Assembly: GCA_003987725.1 (NCBI GenBank)
Contig: RXJH01000005.1
Span: 178,464-242,463, forward strand
Source: Hyphomicrobium sp.
Lineage (GTDB): Bacteria; Pseudomonadota; Alphaproteobacteria; Rhizobiales; Hyphomicrobiaceae
Direction of reading: 5' to 3'
DNA: 64,000 nucleotides
Both the position numbers and the translations under genes were made by a program. Positions within the stretch are counted from its first letter, which is position 1; each line of letters starts with the position of its first letter. Positions 6,627-57,193 of the stretch are shown here, in pieces. Below the pieces are notes generated by a model, which worked only from the letters and a program-made list of their open reading frames with translations, was not told where the DNA came from and ran no database searches.

Positions 6627-8108
6627 TCAGATTCCCAGTTTGGCTTTCAGGATGTCGTTGACGGCCGCGGGGTTTGCCTTGCCGCCCGTCGATTTCATCA
6701 CCTGACCGACGAACCAGCCGAGCATTGAGGGCTTCGCCTTCGCCTGCTCGACCTTCTCCGGGTTGGCGGCGATGATAGCATCGACGGCCTTCTCGATAGC
6801 CCCGGTGTCGGTAACCTGTTTCAGGCCGCGCTTTTCGACGATGTCCGCCGGATCGCCACCTTCCGTCCACACGATCTCGAAAAGATCCTTGGCGATCTTT
6901 CCCGAGATGGCGTTGGAGCCAATGAGATCGACGATGGCGCCGAGCTGCGCTGCCGAGACCGGCGAATCCTCGATCGCTTTGGTTTCCTTGTTCAGGCGGC
7001 CGAAAAGCTCGTTGATCACCCAGTTGGCGGCAACCTTGCCATCGCGGCCTTCAGCAACCTTCTCGAAATAATCCGCCGACGAACGCTCCGACACGAGCAC
7101 ATCGGCGTCGTACGCGGAAAGCCCGAAGCTCTTGATGAAGCGCGCACGCTTCTCGTCGGGTAGCTCCGGCAGCTTAGACTTCAGCTCTTCGACATACGCG
7201 TTCGAGAACTCGAGCGGCAGCAGGTCCGGATCAGGGAAGTAGCGATAGTCGTGCGCTTCCTCTTTCGACCGCATCGAGCGCGTCTCACCCTTCACCGCAT
7301 CGAACAGGCGCGTTTCCTGATCGATCGTGCCGCCGTCCTCGATGATGTCGATCTGGCGCCGCGCCTCGTATTCGATCGCCTGGCCGATGAACCGGATCGA
7401 GTTGACGTTCTTGATCTCGCAGCGCGTGCCGAGCTTGTCGCCCGGCTTTCTGACCGAAACGTTGACGTCAGCGCGCAGGTTGCCCTTGTCCATATCGCCG
7501 TCGGACGTCCCGAGGTAACGCAGGATGCTTCTGAGCTTCGTCACGTAGGCCTGCGCCTGCTTGGAAGACCTGAGATCGGGCTTCGAAACGATCTCCATCA
7601 GGGCGACGCCCGAACGGTTGAGGTCCACGTAGGAATAATCGGGATGCTGGTCGTGCAAGGACTTGCCCGCGTCCTGCTCGAGATGCAGCCGCTCGACGCC
7701 AACCGTCAGTGTCTCGCCATCGACGGAGATCTCAACCGCGCCTTCGCCGACGATCGGCTGCTTGTACTGCGAGATCTGATAGCCCTGCGGCAGATCCGGA
7801 TAGAAATAGTTCTTCCGGTCAAACACGCTTCTGTTGTTGATCTGAGCCTTGAGCCCAAGACCGGTGCGAATGGCCTGGGCCACGCACTCGCGATTGATCA
7901 CGGGCAGCATGCCGGGCATCGCGGCATCGACGAGCGAGACGTGGCTATTCGGCGGCGCGCCGAAGCCGGTCGAGGATCCCGAGAAGAGCTTTGAATTCGA
8001 CGCGACCTGCGCGTGCACCTCGAGGCCGATGATGACTTCCCAGTCACCGGTCGCACCCTCGATCAGATTTTTGGACTTGGGCTTTTCAGCGATTTTCTGA
8101 GAGTTCAT
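6627..8108 (-). CDS. gatB: Aspartyl/glutamyl-tRNA(Asn/Gln) amidotransferase subunit B
   Basis: GatB is the tRNA-binding kinase subunit of the GatCAB transamidosome that makes Gln-tRNA(Gln) and/or Asn-tRNA(Asn). The 493-residue product starts at the ATG at 8108, preceded by a GGAGG site inside the upstream gene, whose TGA overlaps this ATG. Diagnostic segments are [50 protein letters not shown] and RADVNVSVR. The C-terminal part is the helical YqeY-like tail that reads the tRNA. It is the last gene of gatC-gatA-chorismate mutase-membrane protein-gatB. Confidence 0.97.
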
Positions 8109-47636: not shown

Positions 47637-48023
47637 TCAAGCCTCTGCGGGAGCAAATCCCGGCGGCGTTGCCGGTTCGAGATTGACGCTCTCGCCACAC
47701 CCGCATGCGCTCTTCTGGTTCGGATTGTTGAAAACGAACTGCGAAGAAAGCTTGTCGGTCTTATAGTCCATCTCGGTGCCGAGCAGATACATCATCGCCG
47801 CCGGATCGATCAGCACGACCGCGCCCTTTTCCTCGATGATCTCGTCGAACTTCCCGATCTCTTCAGCCCACGTCATGGTGTATTCCATGCCCGCGCAGCC
47901 GCCCTTCTTAATGCCGATCTTGAGGGCTTTGACGCCAGGCTTCTGGGCGATCAGCGCAGCGACGCGCGCCGCAGCGGCATCGGTCAACGTCATGACTTTT
48001 GGCATCATTCTAAGCGAGGGCAC
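47637..48023 (-). CDS. sufA: Fe-S cluster assembly scaffold/carrier SufA (A-type)
   Basis: I choose GTG at 48023 because GGAGG lies five bases upstream; a further frame to 48053 (TTG) and ATGs at 48008 and 48005 exist. The 128-residue product has the A-type carrier fold with the three conserved cysteines (KKGGCAGMEY and SACGCGES). It receives clusters and passes them to targets. It is the last gene of the suf series, 75 bases after sufT. Confidence 0.9.
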   Translation of the reverse strand: MPSLRMMPKVMTLTDAAAARVAALIAQKPGVKALKIGIKKGGCAGMEYTMTWAEEIGKFDEIIEEKGAVVLIDPAAMMYLLGTEMDYKTDKLSSQFVFNNPNQKSACGCGESVNLEPATPPGFAPAEA

Positions 48024-48098
48024 GCGAGCCTCCGTATTTTCGAGTCGTGGCAACAGCCACAGTATATGGGAATTCGTCCGCCAAAAGCGAGGGTGTCC

Positions 48099-48590
48099 TC
48101 AAAACATGCCGACGGCAAGGCGCGCCTCATCCGACATACGGCTTTGATCCCAAGGCGGATCGAACACGATAGAGACCTTCGTCTGCGCGACCCCGGGGAC
48201 CGCATTAACGGCATTCTCGACCCAAATCGGCATTTCGCCGGCAACAGGGCAGCCGGGCGCCGTCAGGGTCATGTTGATCGCGACGTTGCGATCGTCGTCG
48301 ACCTCGACCTTGTAGATCAATCCGAGCTCGTAGATGTCAGCCGGAATTTCGGGATCATAAACGGTCTTCAGCGCTGCGATGATATCGTTCGTCAGCCTGT
48401 CGATCTCTTCCGGCGGCAACGCCGTCGCCGTTGCCGATCCGCGTTTCTCCTCCGACGTCGCAATTTCCGGCCCGGAATCCAGCGTGGGATCGGACGCGAG
48501 GCCACCGTCAGGTGGCGTTGGCGACGGCGCGTCGAGCGCTTCAACCGCCTGCTTCACCGCTGCCCGGTCGTCGATCTGCTTCCCGTCCAT
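48099..48590 (-). CDS. sufT: SufT/DUF59 Fe-S assembly protein
   Basis: The 163-residue protein has a DUF59/MIP18 core (about residues 58-163): DIIAALKTVYDPEIPADIYELGLIY with the DPEI motif and MTLTAPGCPVAG with the reactive cysteine. This domain helps mature Fe-S proteins. The first 55 residues (PSPTPPDGG, acidic) are an extension without known fold. It follows sufS by 11 bases and is part of the suf operon. SufE or SufU, the usual SufS activators, are not in this window. Confidence 0.9.
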   Translation of the reverse strand: MDGKQIDDRAAVKQAVEALDAPSPTPPDGGLASDPTLDSGPEIATSEEKRGSATATALPPEEIDRLTNDIIAALKTVYDPEIPADIYELGLIYKVEVDDDRNVAINMTLTAPGCPVAGEMPIWVENAVNAVPGVAQTKVSIVFDPPWDQSRMSDEARLAVGMF

Positions 48591-48601: not shown

Positions 48602-49885
48602 TTAAGCGAAAAGGTCATGCGCCTTGGTGAGCGCGGTAACGAGCGCATCAGCCTCGGCTTTTGTGTTGTACAACGCGAAAGAAGCGCGGCAGGTTGCAGA
48701 AACCCCGAGGCGCTCCATCAGCGGCTGCGCGCAGTGATGACCGGCCCGGATCGCAACACCCGACCGGTCGATGATCGTCGAAACGTCATGCGGGTGCAGG
48801 CCATCCATCGTGAACGAGAAGATCGCGCCTTTTCCGGGAGCCGTCCCGTAAAGCTTCAGCCACGGCAACGCGCCGAGGCGCTCAGCCGCGTAAGCGCCAA
48901 GCTCCGCTTCGTAGCGCGAGATCTTTTCGCGGCCGATCTGCATCATATAGTTGAGCGCCGCGCTCAAACCGACGGCCTCGACAATGGCTGGAGTGCCGGC
49001 TTCGAACCGGTGCGGCGGCTGATTATAGGTTACGTTGTCGACCGTCACGTGCTCGATCATATCGCCACCACCCTCGTAGGGCGGCATGGCGGCTAGATGT
49101 TGCCGTTTCGCATAGAGCACGCCGATACCCGACGGCCCATAGGTCTTGTGGCCGGTGAACACGTAGAAATCCGCATCGAGATCACGAACGTCGACGCCCA
49201 TATGAACGGCCGCCTGACTACCGTCGATAAGCACCGGAACGCCTTTCGCATGCGCGATCCGAATGATCTCCTTCACCGGATTGATCGTGCCAAGCACGTT
49301 CGACATGTGCGTAACGGCAACGATCTTCGTGCGCTTCGTGATCAGGCTTTCGAGCTTGTCGATCATCAGCTCGCCGCTGTCGGTCATCGGCGCCCACTTC
49401 AGAACGGCGCCCTTCCGCTCGCGCAGAAAGTGCCAGGGCACGATGTTCGCGTGGTGCTCCATGATCGTGACGAGGATCTCGTCACCTTTGTCGATCCGCG
49501 GCTCCCCGAACGAACGCGCGACGAGATTGATGGCGCTCGTCGCATTGCGCGTGAAGATGATCTCGTCCGCGTGCTCGGCATTCAGAAAACGGCGAACCGT
49601 CTCGCGTGCCGCTTCATAGTGCTCCGTCGCGGTGTTCGACAGGTAATGCAGCCCGCGATGCACGTTCGCGTATTCGAAACGATAGGCGTGATCCATCGCC
49701 TCGATGACGGAGAGCGGCTTCTGCGCCGACGCCCCGTTGTCGAGATAGACGAGCGGACGATCGTTCACCTCGCGAAAGAGGATCGGAAAATCCGCGCGAA
49801 TGCGCTCGACATCGTAGGGCGCACCGGTCAGGCCGGCCTGCGATGCCGTGCTTCTCGCTACATCGATCGACGTTTCGCGTCCCAT
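48602..49885 (-). CDS. sufS: Cysteine desulfurase SufS (group II)
   Basis: SufS removes sulfur from cysteine for the SufBCD scaffold. The 427-residue product has the PLP lysine in FYVFTGHKTYGPSGIG and the group II catalytic cysteine in the short loop IRAGHHCAQPLM. The VYLDNGASAQKP start and YRFEYANVHRGLHYLSN are as in SufS. It follows sufD by 4 bases. It is a second desulfurase in the locus, in addition to the group I enzyme fused to the regulator at 55-57 kb. Confidence 0.95.
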   Translation of the reverse strand: MGRETSIDVARSTASQAGLTGAPYDVERIRADFPILFREVNDRPLVYLDNGASAQKPLSVIEAMDHAYRFEYANVHRGLHYLSNTATEHYEAARETVRRFLNAEHADEIIFTRNATSAINLVARSFGEPRIDKGDEILVTIMEHHANIVPWHFLRERKGAVLKWAPMTDSGELMIDKLESLITKRTKIVAVTHMSNVLGTINPVKEIIRIAHAKGVPVLIDGSQAAVHMGVDVRDLDADFYVFTGHKTYGPSGIGVLYAKRQHLAAMPPYEGGGDMIEHVTVDNVTYNQPPHRFEAGTPAIVEAVGLSAALNYMMQIGREKISRYEAELGAYAAERLGALPWLKLYGTAPGKGAIFSFTMDGLHPHDVSTIIDRSGVAIRAGHHCAQPLMERLGVSATCRASFALYNTKAEADALVTALTKAHDLFA

Positions 49886-49889
49886 GTAC

Positions 49890-51233
49890 CTATCCGTGCC
49901 GTGAACGGCCGAGCCACTGCATCGCGTACGATGCGAGCGCCTCTCTCAGCCCCTCATGTTCCACCTTGTCAAGCGCCTCACCAATGAACGATTCGATCAT
50001 CAACGCGCGAGCTTCCTTTTCGGGAATTCCGCGCGAGCGGCAGTAGAAGAGCAGATCGGGATCGAGTTCCGCGCTCGTCGTACCGTGACCGCATACGACA
50101 TCGTCCGCGTAGATCTCGAGTTCCGGCTTGGAATCAAACTCGGCATCCTCCGACAGCATCAAGGCTTGCGACATCTGCTTGCCGTCGGTCTTCTGCGCGT
50201 CGGGCCGAACGATGATCTTGCCTTGGAACACGCCGCGGCCATGGCCGTCGAGCACGCCCTTGAACAGCTCCCGGCTCTCACAATGCGGCACCGCATGGTC
50301 TACGACGAGCGTCGTATCGACGTGTTCCGAATGACGCGCGAGATACGCGCCCGAAAGGTCGAGCTTGCTGCCCTCGCCATTGAACAAAACGTTGATGCCG
50401 TTACGGGCAAAACCGAGACCCGACGAGAACTGGAAGCCGCGATAGCTTGCATCAGCCGCGAGCCGCACCTCCCAATTCGAAAGATGCAGCGACTTGCCTT
50501 CATCGACCGCCACCTTGACGTGATCGAGGGTCGCGCCCTTTCCGACGGACACCTCGGTCAGGGTGTTGAGATGCGCGTCGCGCACGGCGCCCGGCAGCAC
50601 GATGTCGGCTTCGATGAGCGTCGCGCTCGCGCCTTCGCCGGTGTTGATCAGATTGCGGACCGTAACCGCATTCGCCTCCGACCCGGCACGAACGAAGATC
50701 ATGAGAAGCGGCTTGTCGACCGCCACGCCCTTGGCAACCTCGACGATAGCCCCGTCCGTCATGAAAGCCGTGTTGAGTGCTTCGACCGCGTCTCCGCCCT
50801 CCGGCGTAGAAGCCAACCCGGCAAGAACCTCTTCAGAAGCTGACTGCAACGCCTTGCCGATCGTCGAGATCGTCAACCCTGCCGCATCGGCAGTATCGCT
50901 CAAGCCTGCGCGATAGTGGCCATTTACGAACACGATCCGATGCGCATCGACGTGAGCCAGCGGTCCGAGGGCAACGATAAGCTCGGCAATCGTCAGCGGC
51001 GTCTTATCTTCGACGGCCGCCGGCAGCACCTCTTTCAGGTTGGCGCGAAGATCAGTGTATTTCCATTCTTCGATACGCCGGTGCGGAAGCCCGAGCCCAC
51101 TGAAGGCTCCGATGGCCTGCGCACGGCGCGCCTGCACCGCGGCGCTACCCGGAAGCTTCGCCGCCGCCACCTCGAAACTCTCCGAGATGGCCTGCTCCGC
51201 CTTGGTCTTCATAACTGCTACGTTCATGTTCAC
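49890..51233 (-). CDS. sufD: Fe-S cluster assembly protein SufD
   Basis: SufD forms the SufBC2D scaffold. The 447-residue product has the all-beta SufBD core with [47 protein letters not shown] and [19 protein letters not shown]. The N-terminal helical segment (about residues 1-170) is normal for the family. Its ATG overlaps the sufC TGA by four bases (ATGA), so the two are coupled. Confidence 0.94.
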
Positions 51234-51985
51234 GCTGCCTTGTTGGTATATTCAGCGTAGCCGGATTTCTCGAGTTCGAGCGCCAGCTCCTTGCCGCCCG
51301 TTTTCTGAATACGGCCGTCCGCGAGCACGTGGACCTTGTCCGGCACGATGTAATTCAAGAGCCGCTGATAATGCGTGATCACGAGAAACGCGCGATCCGG
51401 AGAGCGGAGCGCGTTGACGCCTTCCGAGACGATCCTCAACGCGTCGATGTCGAGGCCGGAATCGGTCTCGTCGAGCACGCACAGCGTCGGCTCGAGAAGC
51501 CCCATCTGCAGGATTTCCGATCGCTTCTTTTCGCCGCCCGAGAACCCGACGTTGACGGGCCGCTTCAACATCTCGATATCGATATTGAGCTTCGCGCCCT
51601 TCTCCTTCGCGAGCTTCAGGAAGGCGGGCGTCGTCAGCTCCGCCTCGCCGCGTTTCTTGCGAATGGAATTGAGCGCCGTGCGGAGGAACGTGAGGCCCGC
51701 GACGCCCGGAATTTCCATCGGATATTGGAATGCGAGGAACACGCCCTTCGCGGCACGCTCGTCAGGCTCCATGTCGAGGATCGACTCGCCATTCCACAGA
51801 ATGTCGCCGTCCGTGACTTCATAGCCGTCGCGTCCCGCGAGCACATAAGCAAGCGTCGACTTGCCTGAGCCGTTCGGCCCCATGATCGCGTGAACTTCAC
51901 CCTTCGGCACCGTGAGCGAAAGCCCCTTGAGGATCTCCCGATCCTCGTCCTCGAGCTTCACATGCAGATTTTTGATTTCGAGCAT
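51230..51985 (-). CDS. sufC: Fe-S cluster assembly ATPase SufC
   Basis: ABC-type ATPase that binds SufB-SufD and drives cluster assembly. The 251-residue protein has Walker [10 protein letters not shown], the ABC signature [12 protein letters not shown] and Walker [13 protein letters not shown]. It has no transmembrane segment, as expected for SufC. It precedes sufD with a four-base overlap and follows a small membrane-protein gene by two bases. Confidence 0.96.
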
Positions 51986-51987
51986 TT

Positions 51988-52368
51988 TTAGTTAGCCTTC
52001 GTTACTATTGCAGAATGGCCGACAACCTCTGCCGACATGACCAAACCATAAAGAAGCGCAGCAATTGTTGGAGTGACGGTTCCGAACGCCAGTCCGAGCC
52101 ACGTCGCACCGCGATAAAGCCAGCGCCAGGACGCATAGACCGACGCGACCGGAATCGCGCAAGCGAGGAAAATCAGCGTCCCCAAGAACAAACGCGGCGG
52201 CGGTATCCCAGGCTCAATACCGTTGAACGCTGCGACGAGGACCTGGATCACCGGCAGCAAAACAATCGCGAATGCGATGCCACTCGCAACCGTCAAGGCG
52301 GCGTTGGCCCAACGCGCCCAGCGCGGCGGGGCCTCGTGCTGCGAGACTGGAAAATTCGTTGCGCTCAT
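51988..52368 (-). CDS. Hypothetical membrane protein in the suf cluster
   Basis: From ATG 52368 the product is 126 residues with three hydrophobic segments (about 21-45, 60-80 and 95-118). No family is recognised. It lies two bases before sufC on the same strand and four bases after another small membrane-protein gene, so it is part of the transcript. Membrane proteins are not a known suf component, so its presence is a local feature. Confidence 0.65.
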
Positions 52369-52372
52369 CGCC

Positions 52373-52645
52373 TCAACTCCGATCCCCGCCCCAGCGCCAA
52401 CCCCACTCCCCGTTCGTCTTCGCTTTCGCAAACAACGAAAAGACGACAACGACGGCGAGTGCGAGCGCCAAACCTAGACCGACTTCCCAAAGCGGATGCG
52501 CAGCCCCGCCGTGGATCGGCAAAACAAAGAGCCGGAGCACCGCAAGCAACACCACGACCAATGCCAGCGTCGAAACCCATCCCTTCCAGTTGATGGGGGT
52601 CGCTCCGTAGCCGTAGCTCTTCGGCTTGAACCAATAGTCGGTCAT
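52373..52645 (-). CDS. Small membrane protein in the suf cluster
   Basis: The 90-residue protein (MTDYWFKPKSYGYGATPINW) has a soluble aromatic start and two hydrophobic segments (about 24-44 and 55-73) and ends in a short basic tail. The MTDYWFKPK opening with GYGATP resembles small alphaproteobacterial membrane proteins I have seen in such contexts, but I cannot name it. A good ribosome-binding site (GAGGTGAGG) precedes it. It is the first minus-strand gene of the downstream suf part, after the interruption at 52.8-53.7 kb. Confidence 0.7.
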   Translation of the reverse strand: MTDYWFKPKSYGYGATPINWKGWVSTLALVVVLLAVLRLFVLPIHGGAAHPLWEVGLGLALALAVVVVFSLFAKAKTNGEWGWRWGGDRS

Positions 52646-52794
52646 GGCCTCACCTCAACGTTCTGACCGGAACGCCGTACGGTCCGCTGTTTCCCGCCGA
52701 CCACAGCCCCGTAAACAAACGATCTCGGGACGTTGACGGAAAAAACGGGACCATGCAGCACTGCCCCCGGGGTCGGGAGGAATGAATTCAGACC

Positions 52795-53244
52795 ATGCTG
52801 CGAGTATCGGGGTGCATCTTTGCGCTCGCAATTTTGAGCGGTTGCTCCTCGGCGATGGGGCCTGACGCGAGCCTGCGCGTACCGGCGCAGGCGAGTGCAC
52901 CGGGCCCTGCCTTGAACATGTATTGGCCGTGCCTCATCGAAATCCCGACGCCCGACGTCCTGAAAGAGCGCTACTCGGTCATCGTCGATGGCAACACCGT
53001 CGGCGACATCGGACGCTGCGAGTATCGGCGCTTCGAGGTCGCGTCCGGACGTCATGAAATCAAAGTCAAATCGCCCATGCTGCTTGTCGACCTCGCGGGC
53101 GCCTTCGGATTGAAGGGGCCGTATTACACGGTTCCGCCCGGCGCCCCGATCTACATCCGGTTGTCGTTCTTCAAATATGTCGAATACCGCGAGGTCCCCG
53201 CCGAGGAGGGCATTCGCGAAATCACCGACATGGCCAAAAATTGA
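52795..53244 (+). CDS. Paralogous lipoprotein inside the suf cluster, opposite strand
   Basis: A 149-residue protein with a lipobox ILSGC (Cys17). The core shows an Asp-Gly-x2-VG segment followed by RCEYRRFEVASGRHEIKVKSP, which looks like a PEGA/DUF2846-type beta fold found in surface-exposed proteins. It shares this pattern with the next gene (VDGKRLGELRVC then SVPPGKHNVRVKLAG), so the two are paralogues. It lies on the strand opposite to the suf genes, between sufB and the small membrane proteins. Function unknown. Confidence 0.75.
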   Translation: MLRVSGCIFALAILSGCSSAMGPDASLRVPAQASAPGPALNMYWPCLIEIPTPDVLKERYSVIVDGNTVGDIGRCEYRRFEVASGRHEIKVKSPMLLVDLAGAFGLKGPYYTVPPGAPIYIRLSFFKYVEYREVPAEEGIREITDMAKN

Positions 53245-53271
53245 GGCCGAAGCAAAGGGAGCGAGCCCAAA

Positions 53272-53685
53272 ATGAAAACCACCTTCGCCATCGCCGGACT
53301 TGCGACGATGCTCGCCCACGGCGCCCAAGCCGGCGAGCTTTATATCGTCTCGCGGTGCGCACCTATCTCTCTGCTGACCGGATTTATCGCCGAAGATCCG
53401 TTCGCCCCTTCGAGCCCCATTTTCGTCGATGGAAAGCGCTTGGGCGAATTGCGTGTCTGCGACGCCCTTCGCACCTCCGTACCGCCGGGCAAGCACAATG
53501 TGCGCGTGAAGCTCGCAGGGAAGAGCGACTACGGTATCTCCAGTGATGCCGGCATGGACGTTATTGCTGGAACTGCACCGATCTACATCGTGATGTACAG
53601 CAACAGCTTCACCGGCGCCGACGCCGTGGACCCCCAAAGTGGCCGGCAATTTCTCTCCGACGTCCGAACCGCGCGCGGAAAATAG
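53272..53685 (+). CDS. Paralogous exported protein inside the suf cluster, opposite strand
   Basis: The 137-residue protein has a signal peptide (MKTTFAIAGLATMLAHGAQAG) with a likely cleavage after AQA, but no lipobox. The mature part has the same VDGxxxGxxxxC...PGxHxVxVK pattern as the preceding gene, indicating tandem duplication and divergence. Two cysteines could form a disulfide. It is separated from the paralogue by 27 bases and both oppose the suf genes. Function unknown. Confidence 0.75.
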   Translation: MKTTFAIAGLATMLAHGAQAGELYIVSRCAPISLLTGFIAEDPFAPSSPIFVDGKRLGELRVCDALRTSVPPGKHNVRVKLAGKSDYGISSDAGMDVIAGTAPIYIVMYSNSFTGADAVDPQSGRQFLSDVRTARGK

Positions 53686-53816: not shown

Positions 53817-55286
53817 CTACCCGACCGAGCCTTCCAAGCTTATGCCGATCAGCTTCTGGGATTCTGCCATGAATTCCATCGGCAGCTGCTGCAGCACGTC
53901 GCGAACGAAACCGTTGACCACGAGCGCCACAGCCTCTTCCGCCGAAAGCCCGCGCTGACGGCAGTAGAACAGCATGTCGTCCGAGATCTTCGACGTCGTC
54001 GCCTCGTGCTCGAAATGCGCACTCGAATTCTTGGCTTCGATGTAGGGCACCGTGTGCGCGCCGCACTTGTCGCCAATCAGTAGCGAGTCGCAGTTCGTGA
54101 AGTTGCGGACGTTCGTCGCCTTGCGATGCGCCGACACGAGCCCGCGATAGGTATTCTCCGAATAGCCCGCCGCGATACCCTTCGAGATGATCCGGCTCGT
54201 TGAGTTCTTGCCGAGATGGATCATCTTGGTGCCGCTATCGACCTGCTGATAGCCGTTGGAGACCGCGATCGAGTAAAATTCACCACGAGAGTAATCGCCG
54301 CGCAGAATGCAGCTCGGGTACTTCCACGTGATGGCAGAACCCGTCTCGACTTGCGTCCACGAAATTTTCGAATGATGGCCGCGGCAATCGCCACGCTTCG
54401 TCACGAAGTTATAGATGCCGCCCTTGCCTTGCGCGTCGCCCGGATACCAATTCTGAACCGTCGAATATTTGATCTCGGCGTCATCGAGCGCCACGAGTTC
54501 CACGACAGCCGCATGCAGCTGGTTCTCGTCGCGCATCGGCGCGGTGCAACCCTCGAGATAGGAAACGTAGGCGCCGCGATCCGCGATGATCAGCGTACGC
54601 TCGAACTGCCCCGTCTGCTTCGCATTGATGCGGAAATACGTCGAAAGCTCCATCGGGCAGCGGACGCCCTCCGGCACATAAACGAACGAACCGTCGGAGA
54701 ACACGGCCGAATTCAGCGACGCATAGAAGTTGTCCGACTGCGGAACGACCGAGCCGAGATACTTCTTCACGAGTTCCGGATGTTCGCGGACCGCTTCCGA
54801 GATCGAGCAGAAAATCACGCCCGCCTTCTTCAGCTCGTCCTTGAACGTCGTCACCACCGAAACGCTGTCGAACACGGCGTCGACCGCAACGCGCGAACCC
54901 GTCACGCCCGCGAGAACTTCCTGCTCCTTGAGCGGAATGCCGAGCTTCTTATAGGTCTCGAGCAGCTCCGGATCGACTTCGGCAAGGCTCTTCGGACCCT
55001 CCGTCGATTTCGGCGCCGAGTAATAATAGAGATCCTGAAAATCGATCTTCGGATAGCGGACCTTCGCCCAGGTCGGCTCCGTCATGGCCTTCCAGCGGGT
55101 GAACGCTTCGAGCCTCCAGGTCAGAAGCCACTCCGGCTCGCCCTTCTTGGCCGAGATGTAGCGCACGGTCGACTCATCGAGGCCCTTCGGCGCCTGGATG
55201 CTATCGATCAGCGTCTCGAAACCGTACTTGTACTGGTCGACATCGATCTTCCGAACTTGATCGATCGTCTCCTGAACAGCAGCCAT
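53817..55286 (-). CDS. sufB: Fe-S cluster assembly protein SufB
   Basis: SufB is the scaffold subunit that accepts sulfur and iron. The 489-residue protein has the family segments [40 protein letters not shown] and [18 protein letters not shown], plus the C-terminal [20 protein letters not shown]. It follows the regulator-desulfurase fusion by 63 bases. Its partner genes sufC and sufD are separated from it by 1.2 kb with two opposite-strand genes, unlike the usual contiguous sufBCD. Confidence 0.96.
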
Positions 55287-55349: not shown

Positions 55350-56918
55350 TTACGCAGCGAGCGCGGACGCTCCTACGATCGTTGTCCACGCAGCGAGAAA
55401 CGCCGCGATATCTTCCTTTGTCGTCGACGGTCCGAGACTGATGCGGATCGTGCCCGCAACAATCTCGTGACCTAGTCCCATCGCTTCGAGAACGTGGCTC
55501 GCACCGACCTTGCCGGATGAGCAGGCCGATCCGGCGCTGACAGCAATTCCCGCGAGATCGAGCCGGATGACCAGGGTTTCGGCGAGCTTGCCCGGAAGCG
55601 CCAAAGCCGTCGTATTTCCGAGACGCGCCGAGCCTTCGCCGATGATCACGGCTTCCGGACTGATGCGCTTGACGCCAGCCTCGACCTCATCCCGCAAGGC
55701 CTGAATGGACGCCGCTGCTTTGAGATCGCGAAGCGCCGCTTCGGCCGCGGCACCAAATCCGGCGATGGCTGCGACATTTTCCGTCCCAGCGCGCCGCCGC
55801 CGTTCCTGGCCACCGCCGCGGAGCATGGGCACAAGATCTATATGGTCACGAATGACCAGAGCTCCAACGCCTTTTGGGCCGCCCAATTTATGCGCGGAGA
55901 GCGCCAGCGTATCGACGCCGAGCGCTGCGAAATCGATGGCTATCCTGCCGGCCGCCTGTACCGCATCGGTATGCACTGAAATGCCACGTGAGCGCGCAAG
56001 CGCAGCAATTTCGGCGATCGGCTGAACGACGCCGGTTTCGTTGTTCGCCAACTGCAGCGCCAGAAGCGACGGTCCCGCGAATTCTCGCGGCAGAATGCGT
56101 TCGGCGAATTCCTCGAGGTCGACGATGCCATGCGCATCGAGCGGCAGCATAACGACGTCGCCGCGCACCGCACGCACCGGCGCGAGAATTGAATCATGCT
56201 CCGTGCCGCTCGTCAAAATCGTCGCCCATGACTGCGTGACGATCCAGTTGTTGGCTTCGGTCGCACCGCTCGTGAAGACGATCTCGGAGGGCTTGGCGCC
56301 GATCAGACGCGCGACGCTTTCACGCGCGCTCTCGATGACCGAGCGGGCGCGCCGTCCTTCGGCGTGCACCGATGACGCATTACCGGTGACGTCAAGCGCT
56401 CTCATCACTGCGGCTTTGGCCTCCGGCCGGAGCGGTGCCGTCGCGTTGTAATCGAGATATGTGCGTTTGCCGGTCGTCCGCGCGGCGGCCGCAAACAGCG
56501 GCGCCGACGAATACCGCCCGCCAGCGATAACGTCCGCGAGATTGACCGACGACAGGAACTCTCCCATCGACTCGCCGAGCGCGGTCCACAGCCAATGCGT
56601 GACGCAGGGCGTTGCGGCCGAGCACCGCGGATCGTTATGCGAGCAGCGCGTGAAGCGCGTGTCTTCCTCGACCGCCTCCATCACCGCGGCTATCGAAATG
56701 TCTGCGGCGGGCTTGGCGAGCCTGTATCCGCCGGTGCGGCCGCGCGCACTCTCGACGAGGCCGGCGCGGCGAAGGGGCACGAAAAGCTGTTCCAGATAGG
56801 CGAGTGGCAGGCTCTGCCGCTCAGCGACGACCGACAGTGCGATGGCACCTTCATCGGCATGCCCGGCGAGATCAGCCATGGCCATGACCGCGTACCGGCC
56901 TTTGGTCGTCAATTCCAC
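55350..56918 (-). CDS. Rrf2/IscR-type regulator fused to group I cysteine desulfurase (IscS-like)
   Basis: One frame of 522 residues from GTG 56918. Residues 1-135 are an Rrf2-type regulator starting MELTTKGRYAVMAMADLAG with winged-helix segments and the [2Fe-2S] ligands Cys92, Cys99, Cys105 and His108 (C-x6-C-x5-C-x2-H), almost at the E. coli IscR positions. After a linker of about 15 residues a full IscS/NifS-type desulfurase follows (152-515): YLDYNATAPLRP, HDSI with His241, PLP Lys344 (SAHKLGGPKG) and catalytic Cys466 (SAGSACSSGK). The stop codon expected between these normally separate genes is missing. It heads the suf cluster and probably senses Fe-S status while supplying sulfur. Confidence 0.95.
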   Translation of the reverse strand: MELTTKGRYAVMAMADLAGHADEGAIALSVVAERQSLPLAYLEQLFVPLRRAGLVESARGRTGGYRLAKPAADISIAAVMEAVEEDTRFTRCSHNDPRCSAATPCVTHWLWTALGESMGEFLSSVNLADVIAGGRYSSAPLFAAAARTTGKRTYLDYNATAPLRPEAKAAVMRALDVTGNASSVHAEGRRARSVIESARESVARLIGAKPSEIVFTSGATEANNWIVTQSWATILTSGTEHDSILAPVRAVRGDVVMLPLDAHGIVDLEEFAERILPREFAGPSLLALQLANNETGVVQPIAEIAALARSRGISVHTDAVQAAGRIAIDFAALGVDTLALSAHKLGGPKGVGALVIRDHIDLVPMLRGGGQERRRRAGTENVAAIAGFGAAAEAALRDLKAAASIQALRDEVEAGVKRISPEAVIIGEGSARLGNTTALALPGKLAETLVIRLDLAGIAVSAGSACSSGKVGASHVLEAMGLGHEIVAGTIRISLGPSTTKEDIAAFLAAWTTIVGASALAA

Positions 56919-57065
56919 GTCTTTTAATCTCCGGACTATCGCCGCCCCAAGTGGCGACGGAATCCAAACCTTGCGCCCGGCACCCCGGACTGTGCTAAGA
57001 GAGCCGCCCTGATCCAATGCCTGTTGTAATCGAGCCAGGACCCGCACATTTCGAACGGTTCTAAA

Positions 57066-57094
57066 GTTATGGAAATCCTGAGCGCCGGAGTCAA
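57066..57094 (-). promoter_or_regulatory. Candidate sigma-70 promoter of the fusion-suf cluster
   Basis: On the minus strand TTGACT (57094-57089) is followed by a 17-base spacer and CATAAC (57071-57066), which keeps four of six -10 positions. Transcription would start near 57060, about 140 bases before the GTG of the fusion gene. The region could also be where the Rrf2 domain binds, but no palindromic IscR box is clear to me. The gene is divergent from the alpha/beta hydrolase gene. Confidence 0.45.
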
Positions 57095-57193
57095 GGATTG
57101 AGATTGAACCCACAAGGATTTGAACGCTCGGATGCCATCCATAGGCTGTCTGAGCTGCCCTGAAGCCAATCACGAAAGATCGAGTAATCTCTG

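Follow-up and report, generated by a model that had tools for sequence, protein, structure and literature searches.

The 64,000-nucleotide stretch of Hyphomicrobium DNA analysed here, referred to below as the window, contains a gene in which an IscR-type Rrf2 regulator and a NifS/IscS-type cysteine desulfurase are encoded by a single open reading frame at the head of a suf operon. We favour, with moderate confidence, the view that its product is a bifunctional and self-repressing IscR-IscS protein, which would have been carried on one chain since the ancestor of the genus Hyphomicrobium. Comparison of the genus sequences indicates that the sensor and the desulfurase are probably produced as one protein with two parts. 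Within the samples covered, the fusion occurs in this genus alone. No account of a fusion between IscR and a cysteine desulfurase was found in the literature searched, subscription papers and domain databases lying outside that search; the available portions of PMC9973013, PMC6956336 and PMC4618611 do not describe an IscR-IscS fusion, and PMC6067878, in its available part, concerns an iscR mutant of E. coli.

Domain architecture of the fusion gene

The features of the locus are summarized in Table 1. The gene lies on the minus strand; its limits and the identity of the seven ligand and catalytic residues agree with a sequence-only reading that preceded this study. That reading had also proposed that IscR and IscS, normally the products of separate genes, are joined here in one chain, a proposal that the present analysis supports, the ligand and catalytic residues being complete and the gene heading the suf operon.

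Table 1. Features of the iscR-iscS fusion locus and the suf operon, in window coordinates
Feature	Position	Strand	Remarks
IscR-box-like element CCTTGACTCCGGCGCTCAGGATTT	57073..57096	-	overlaps -35-like TTGACT
Irr/ICE-like palindrome TTTAGAACCGTTCGAAA	57049..57065	-	just downstream of the IscR-like element
iscR-iscS fusion gene	55350..56918	-	GTG start at 56918, stop codon at 55350-55352, no internal stop, 522 aa
IscR-type Rrf2 domain, residues 1-131	56526..56918	-	winged helix and C92/C99/C105/H108 ligands
Variable linker, residues 132-152	56463..56525	-	without in-frame ATG/GTG/TTG
NifS/IscS-type cysteine desulfurase domain, residues 153-522	55353..56462	-	H241, K344, C466
sufB, next gene of the operon	53817..55286	-	NF008773 SufB, 894.1 bits (cut-off 717)
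sufC-like ABC ATPase	51230..51985	-	open frame; labelled by reading the sequence
sufD-like gene	49890..51233	-	open frame; labelled by reading the sequence
sufS, separate SufS-family cysteine desulfurase	48602..49885	-	TIGR01979, 589.8 bits (cut-off 475.1)
SUF-associated assembly protein (SufT/DUF59 type)	48099..48590	-	TIGR02945, 156.6 bits (cut-off 143.4)
sufA-like A-type carrier	47637..48053	-	TIGR01997, 135.6 bits (just under 136.2); TIGR00049, 112.5 bits (cut-off 58.8)

Both domains are recognized by Pfam, with Rrf2 matching residues 3-132 at 127.5 bits (cut-off 30) and Aminotran_5 matching residues 153-507 at 217.7 bits (cut-off 21.5). The NCBIfam model rrf2_super scores 124.1 bits on the fusion, above its cut-off of 73.3. 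The top Rrf2-type model in NCBIfam is TIGR02010 for IscR, with 151.8 bits against a cut-off of 207.55, and the Rrf2 half is therefore named IscR-type and not a curated IscR. The four standalone IscR and four standalone IscS proteins of relatives that were tested all score below the NCBIfam equivalog cut-offs as well; the IscR cut-off thus fails to separate alphaproteobacterial IscR. For the enzyme half the top NCBIfam match is TIGR03402 (NifS) with 346.4 bits, below the cut-off of 530.75, while the IscS equivalog reaches 236.1 bits, below 643.2. Both scores lying under their thresholds, the half is named, on its sequence, NifS/IscS-type. In the PDB, the sequence of the enzyme half matches NifS/IscS structures best, and that of the regulator half Rrf2 regulators, among them IscR entries.

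The cluster ligands C92, C99, C105 and H108 are invariant in all 22 fused proteins of the genus. The same holds for K344, H241 and C466, which we take to be the PLP lysine, the catalytic-site histidine and the catalytic cysteine of the loop, respectively. Comparison of 12 functional positions among the fused proteins shows 11 of them to be invariant; the exception is position 40, occupied by alanine in 15 proteins, that of the window included, and by serine in seven. The DNA contacts of E. coli IscR are given as S40, Y41, E43, Q44 and R59 in the available text of PMC11475020, and the last four of these are kept in 22/22 fused proteins.

Selection was estimated on 12 chosen pairs out of 231 possible ones, one of which has a dS of 2.77 and is near saturation. 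dN/dS ranges from 0.029 to 0.136 for the Rrf2 half and from 0.070 to 0.158 for the IscS half; both halves are under purifying selection, and with values this low in each, neither is decaying. The dN/dS of the linker is above that of both halves in nine of the 12 pairs. Across the 22 genomes the linker, counted from the conserved AD(V/L) up to the residue preceding YLD, spans 20-35 residues and varies in sequence as well as in length, always by whole codons.

A structural model of the fusion was predicted from an alignment of 48 rows, comprising 20 of the 22 fused proteins (all but those of loci L049 and L050) together with 28 separate ones. The mean pLDDT is 87.7, and the prediction is confident across most of both halves. 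Values below 50 are found at residues 140-148 in the linker, and lower values also occur around the cluster ligands (65 for the block 91-100), at 361-380 (71 and 67) and at the catalytic loop 461-470 (62). When the whole chain was submitted to Foldseek, the 50 rows listed were all desulfurases or selenocysteine lyases, and the fold matches include IscS structures, for instance 4isy_B, to which the predicted model has a TM-score of 0.90 normalised by target.

In two related genomes, those with L049 and L050, the Rrf2 domain contains an insertion near its beginning, which brings the protein to a total of 543 aa. We also note a pair of alanines at the end of every one of the 22 fused proteins (55353-55364 in the window), the terminus being ALAA in 18, AIAA in two, AAAA in one and ELAA in one. 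An LAA terminus is present in 14 of 48 complete separate IscS proteins from different-frame loci. This ending resembles an ssrA/ClpXP degron; a tail of that kind, if functional, would give sensor and enzyme a common turnover.

Distribution and origin of the fusion

The family sample comprises 103 genomes, 102 of them with a match at 1e-30, and the fusion is present in all 22 genomes of the genus; it was not seen in the 81 other family genomes, some of which are broken by contig ends. Seven of the 397 genomes in the order sample are fused (387 with a match at 1e-30), all of them within the genus, and the class and phylum samples each contain one fusion, the window's own (1/385, with 290 matched at 1e-60, and 1/398, with 214 matched at 1e-70). 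These samples overlap, and the counts are among the best matches listed, where any fusion should come near the top, with 14 candidates scored per genome in the family sample and at most three in the others. The contig scan for relatives, the part of the search that reached beyond the phylum, covers the best 80 of at least 542 relatives. A named relative with the fusion is H. facile DSM 1565, whose protein is 85% identical, and the fused proteins of the genus range down to 60% identity. Hyphomicrobiales, the range suggested in the sequence-only reading for comparing the fusion, proved too wide, since in the samples searched one genus holds all the cases.

Two look-alikes from outside the genus were rejected as probable assembly errors. 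The one in Hyphomonadaceae (CP096134, L105) keeps the old IscR tail and its stop in another frame (7341-7521), and the one in Brevundimonas (CP059260, L122) carries an N at the junction codon, its locus contains 29 N, and its frame continues through sufB. Both are assembled metagenome chromosomes and stand as a warning for automatic fusion surveys.

In a tree of the joined domains, built from 68 rows (22 fused and 46 separate), all fused rows lie on one side of one branch with support of 100/99. The separate loci of the family type have a frame offset of 2 mod 3 in 31/35 cases and of 1 in 4/35, against an offset of 0 in 22/22 fused genes, and in 29 of these 35 loci there is a 4-nt overlap between an iscS start and the iscR stop. 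The 35, some of them near-identical, were taken as family-type sisters from 49 different-frame separate loci for the tree and offset comparison; the other 14, left out as duplicates or as lying outside the family, were counted among 94 others. Among the loci retrieved from outside the family the two genes often share a frame, separated by a stop and a short gap (80 of the 94 separate loci other than the 35). This share is biased, since a same-frame pair matches the query over its whole length and many of these loci were retrieved for that reason.

Because two separate genes persist in the sister genera, for the most part in different frames and with a 4-nt overlap, one frameshift at the ancestral iscR/iscS overlap is the likely origin of the fusion and the simplest account of it. 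Such an event in the ancestor of Hyphomicrobium would have abolished the stop of iscR together with the start of iscS, and the fusion illustrates a plausible route by which overlapping genes become a fused regulator-enzyme.

An origin of this kind would also suit a neutral fusion, in which a chance frameshift joined two neighbouring genes without altering the work of either half, the joining having no regulatory meaning beyond a stoichiometry that the 4-nt translational overlap had already nearly fixed. The joining step would have been small, as the genes of the likely ancestor already overlapped (29/35 sister loci), and the variable linker with its low-confidence prediction is in keeping with neutrality. 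On the other hand, the fusion is kept in 22/22 species, down to the 60% identity mentioned above, and no reversal was seen, although persistence alone is no proof of benefit. We regard neutrality as unlikely on balance, while giving it real weight.

Promoter elements

Upstream of the fusion gene lie two conserved elements. The first, CCTTGACTNNNNNNCTCRGGATTT, is located 170-241 nt before the start in 22/22 genes, with 0 mismatches in 17 and one in five; its centre is G+C-rich in the genus. The second is a palindrome at 57049-57065, which resembles an Irr/ICE box. It is close to TTTAGAACNGTTCNAAA, from which it differs by 0 mismatches in 18/22 genes, by one in one, by two in two and by three in one, and it also precedes iscR in many sister loci. 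The palindrome suggests a double iron control of the operon; four Fur-family genes are present in the genome of the window.

Scanning the genomes with the genus pattern yielded one site with 0-1 mismatches per genome in 22/22, all other matches having two or three mismatches. The pattern was derived from these same promoters, and the scan shows uniqueness, not independent discovery. A control pattern read backward gave 0-3 matches per strand and genome; because the sites with two or three mismatches are near this background, no regulon is drawn from them.

With the E. coli type-1 IscR consensus, as quoted in the available text of PMC6599224, the upstream regions of the genus score 16-17 of 25 in 21/22 cases and 14 in one, no higher than shuffled sequence (14-17), and in 3/22 the best match is found elsewhere than at the conserved element. 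The same consensus before iscR is matched at up to 23 of 25 in other Alphaproteobacteria and at up to 19 in the family-type sisters. The identity of the element as an IscR box rests on its position, its conservation and this graded series in relatives, and the TTGACT within it may owe its conservation to a role as a -35 box alone.

For Rhodobacter, both an IscR and an Irr box are predicted ahead of iscR (PMC6956336), where IscR binding is verified and Irr binding unconfirmed according to the available parts of PMC6956336 and PMC3413700. Given this precedent, the conserved element and the better consensus matches of the relatives, binding of IscR is likely at the fusion promoter. The sequence-only reading had tied the fusion to transcription of the suf genes, and the conservation of the IscR-box-like element in 22/22 argues that the fusion probably still controls its own operon, though this element matches the E. 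coli consensus weakly.

Operon and genome setting

The region between sufB and sufC (51988-53685) contains several open frames on both strands, which by eye include small minus-strand frames resembling membrane proteins and two plus-strand frames resembling lipoproteins or secreted proteins.

A search of the window's genome for Rrf2 proteins (E <= 0.001) gave three further matches, scoring best as RirA or NsrR and below cut-off, and found no second IscR; the fusion is thus the only IscR found in this genome. The other two desulfurase matches there are SufS and a protein of the encapsulin-cargo type. The latter, of 742 aa, is encoded on contig C8 (L002:337-2562), matches the family 2A encapsulin cargo model with 850.6 bits against 800 and has a long N-terminus rich in Pro, Ala and Ser. 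No other desulfurase match above 76 bits, the level of SufS, was found in 21/22 genomes, and the remaining genome has an additional NifS-like match of 229.8 bits (41%). The genome of the window further contains an MnmA-type gene, whose product belongs to the users of desulfurase sulfur, and an IscU candidate that scores 21.3 bits, just under the Pfam cut-off of 22.

Proposed function and mechanism

By homology with IscR, the Rrf2 half would bind a [2Fe-2S] cluster, and the loaded form would repress the iscRS-suf promoter via the IscR-box-like element. When clusters are scarce, the Rrf2 half would lose its cluster and the operon would be relieved. The IscS half is expected to be a working PLP desulfurase that supplies sulfur for tRNA thiolation as well as for the SUF machinery. 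The ratio of sensor to desulfurase would be fixed at 1:1, with one common turnover, and since both share one chain, the regulator could no longer be made without the enzyme. Most likely, IscR represses its own operon and IscS supplies sulfur in the ordinary way, with both now on one chain.

A tighter coupling can be imagined, in which the desulfurase half feeds the cluster of its own switch, as the sequence-only reading had put forward, and the repressor brings the sulfur source to the operator. Such feedback in cis is a real but unlikely possibility; if true, the level of repression would reflect the flux through the desulfurase in addition to the free cluster pool. In its most direct form, the desulfurase half would itself promote cluster loading of its own sensor half or of that of the dimer partner, and repression would be a measure of the flux through the desulfurase instead of the general cluster pool. 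The two intact halves on a short tether (20-35 residues) would allow such a transfer, no other IscR was found in the window's genome, and in 21/22 genomes no other match reaches the NifS/IscS level. The sequence of the linker, however, is unconserved, its prediction is of low confidence, and IscS normally hands its persulfide to scaffold proteins, not to finished cluster proteins, and we consider direct loading very unlikely. The combination of ordinary self-repression and ordinary sulfur supply remains the preferred reading.

Integrity of the frame and its product

The fusion occupies one frame in 22/22 genomes of the genus, four of which are single-contig assemblies. The unbroken frame over the match covers residues 1-522 in 20 of them. 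In the two genomes that carry the early Rrf2 insertion, G405 and G407 (L049 and L050), the match is reported only from residues 23 and 22, respectively, because of that insertion; their frames still contain the VELTTKGRY start, followed by the insertion.

The start at 56918 is conserved as GTG in 21/22 genes and as TTG in one, with TCCGGAG just before it in 16/22 and variants in six. A start further upstream, at 57173 (607 aa), was rejected because the conserved promoter elements would fall inside the extension and because the start at 56918 is conserved.

The sequence-only reading had also raised the prospect of two separate products. For the gene of the window, production of a second protein from an internal start is unlikely and was rejected, as there is no start codon near the old iscS start: no in-frame ATG, GTG or TTG occurs from 35 codons before to 11 after the YLDYN motif (residue 154), and the closest one on the N-terminal side of the enzyme domain is M118, which lies within the Rrf2 domain. 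Ten of the 22 genes have no ATG, GTG or TTG from 12 codons before to 11 after YLDYN. Such codons are scattered near the IscS motif in the other 12, with an ATG at a shared place (-3) in only 3/22, and a minor second product may be formed from these 12 genes.

Two working proteins could also arise if the chain were made whole and then cut in the linker to give separate IscR and IscS. The variability of the linker and its low-confidence prediction speak for such a cut, whereas no common motif is visible by eye in the 22 linkers, and we hold this outcome to be highly improbable. A sequencing or assembly artefact, in the form of the missing stop or frameshift considered in the sequence-only reading, has its parallel in the two isolated look-alikes L122 and L105, but can practically be dismissed, as 22/22 species genomes agree on the fusion and in five of them, the window included, neither of the other junction frames holds any stop, so that no old iscR end is hidden at the junction.

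Comparison with known systems

The isc-suf operons of Caulobacter and Rhodobacter encode the same two proteins in the same gene order before sufB. In those genera, IscR and IscS are two polypeptides, in contrast to the one of Hyphomicrobium. The regulator half resembles E. coli IscR, the autorepressor of isc that alternates between the [2Fe-2S] holo and apo forms, in its Rrf2 fold, in its three Cys and one His ligands and in the DNA-contact residues Y41, E43, Q44 and R59. RyhB of E. coli removes the iscSUA part of the mRNA and leaves iscR, as described in the available text of PMC8300815. E. coli thus uncouples IscR from IscS via RyhB, whereas a fused protein in Hyphomicrobium forbids this uncoupling. 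The clearest consequence of the fusion is that independent control is lost and the option, open to E. coli, of a regulator without the enzyme is removed. How IscR reads its cluster, and whether it needs assembly enzymes nearby, is difficult to study with two unlinked proteins; a natural fusion present across a whole genus provides a built-in 1:1 system in culturable environmental bacteria.

In the MocR/GabR proteins, a winged helix of the GntR type is joined to a PLP enzyme domain of fold type I. Like them, the Hyphomicrobium fusion carries a winged-helix DNA binder and a PLP-enzyme fold in a single chain; unlike them, it draws on another HTH family and another PLP subclass. The PLP half of MocR proteins is usually an effector sensor, in contrast to that of the fusion, in which the desulfurase residues are kept intact. 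The trigger enzymes PutA, BirA and NadR regulate their own genes, and they share with the fusion, as proposed here, the combination of an enzyme with a regulator of its own gene, while being unrelated to Fe-S cluster assembly.
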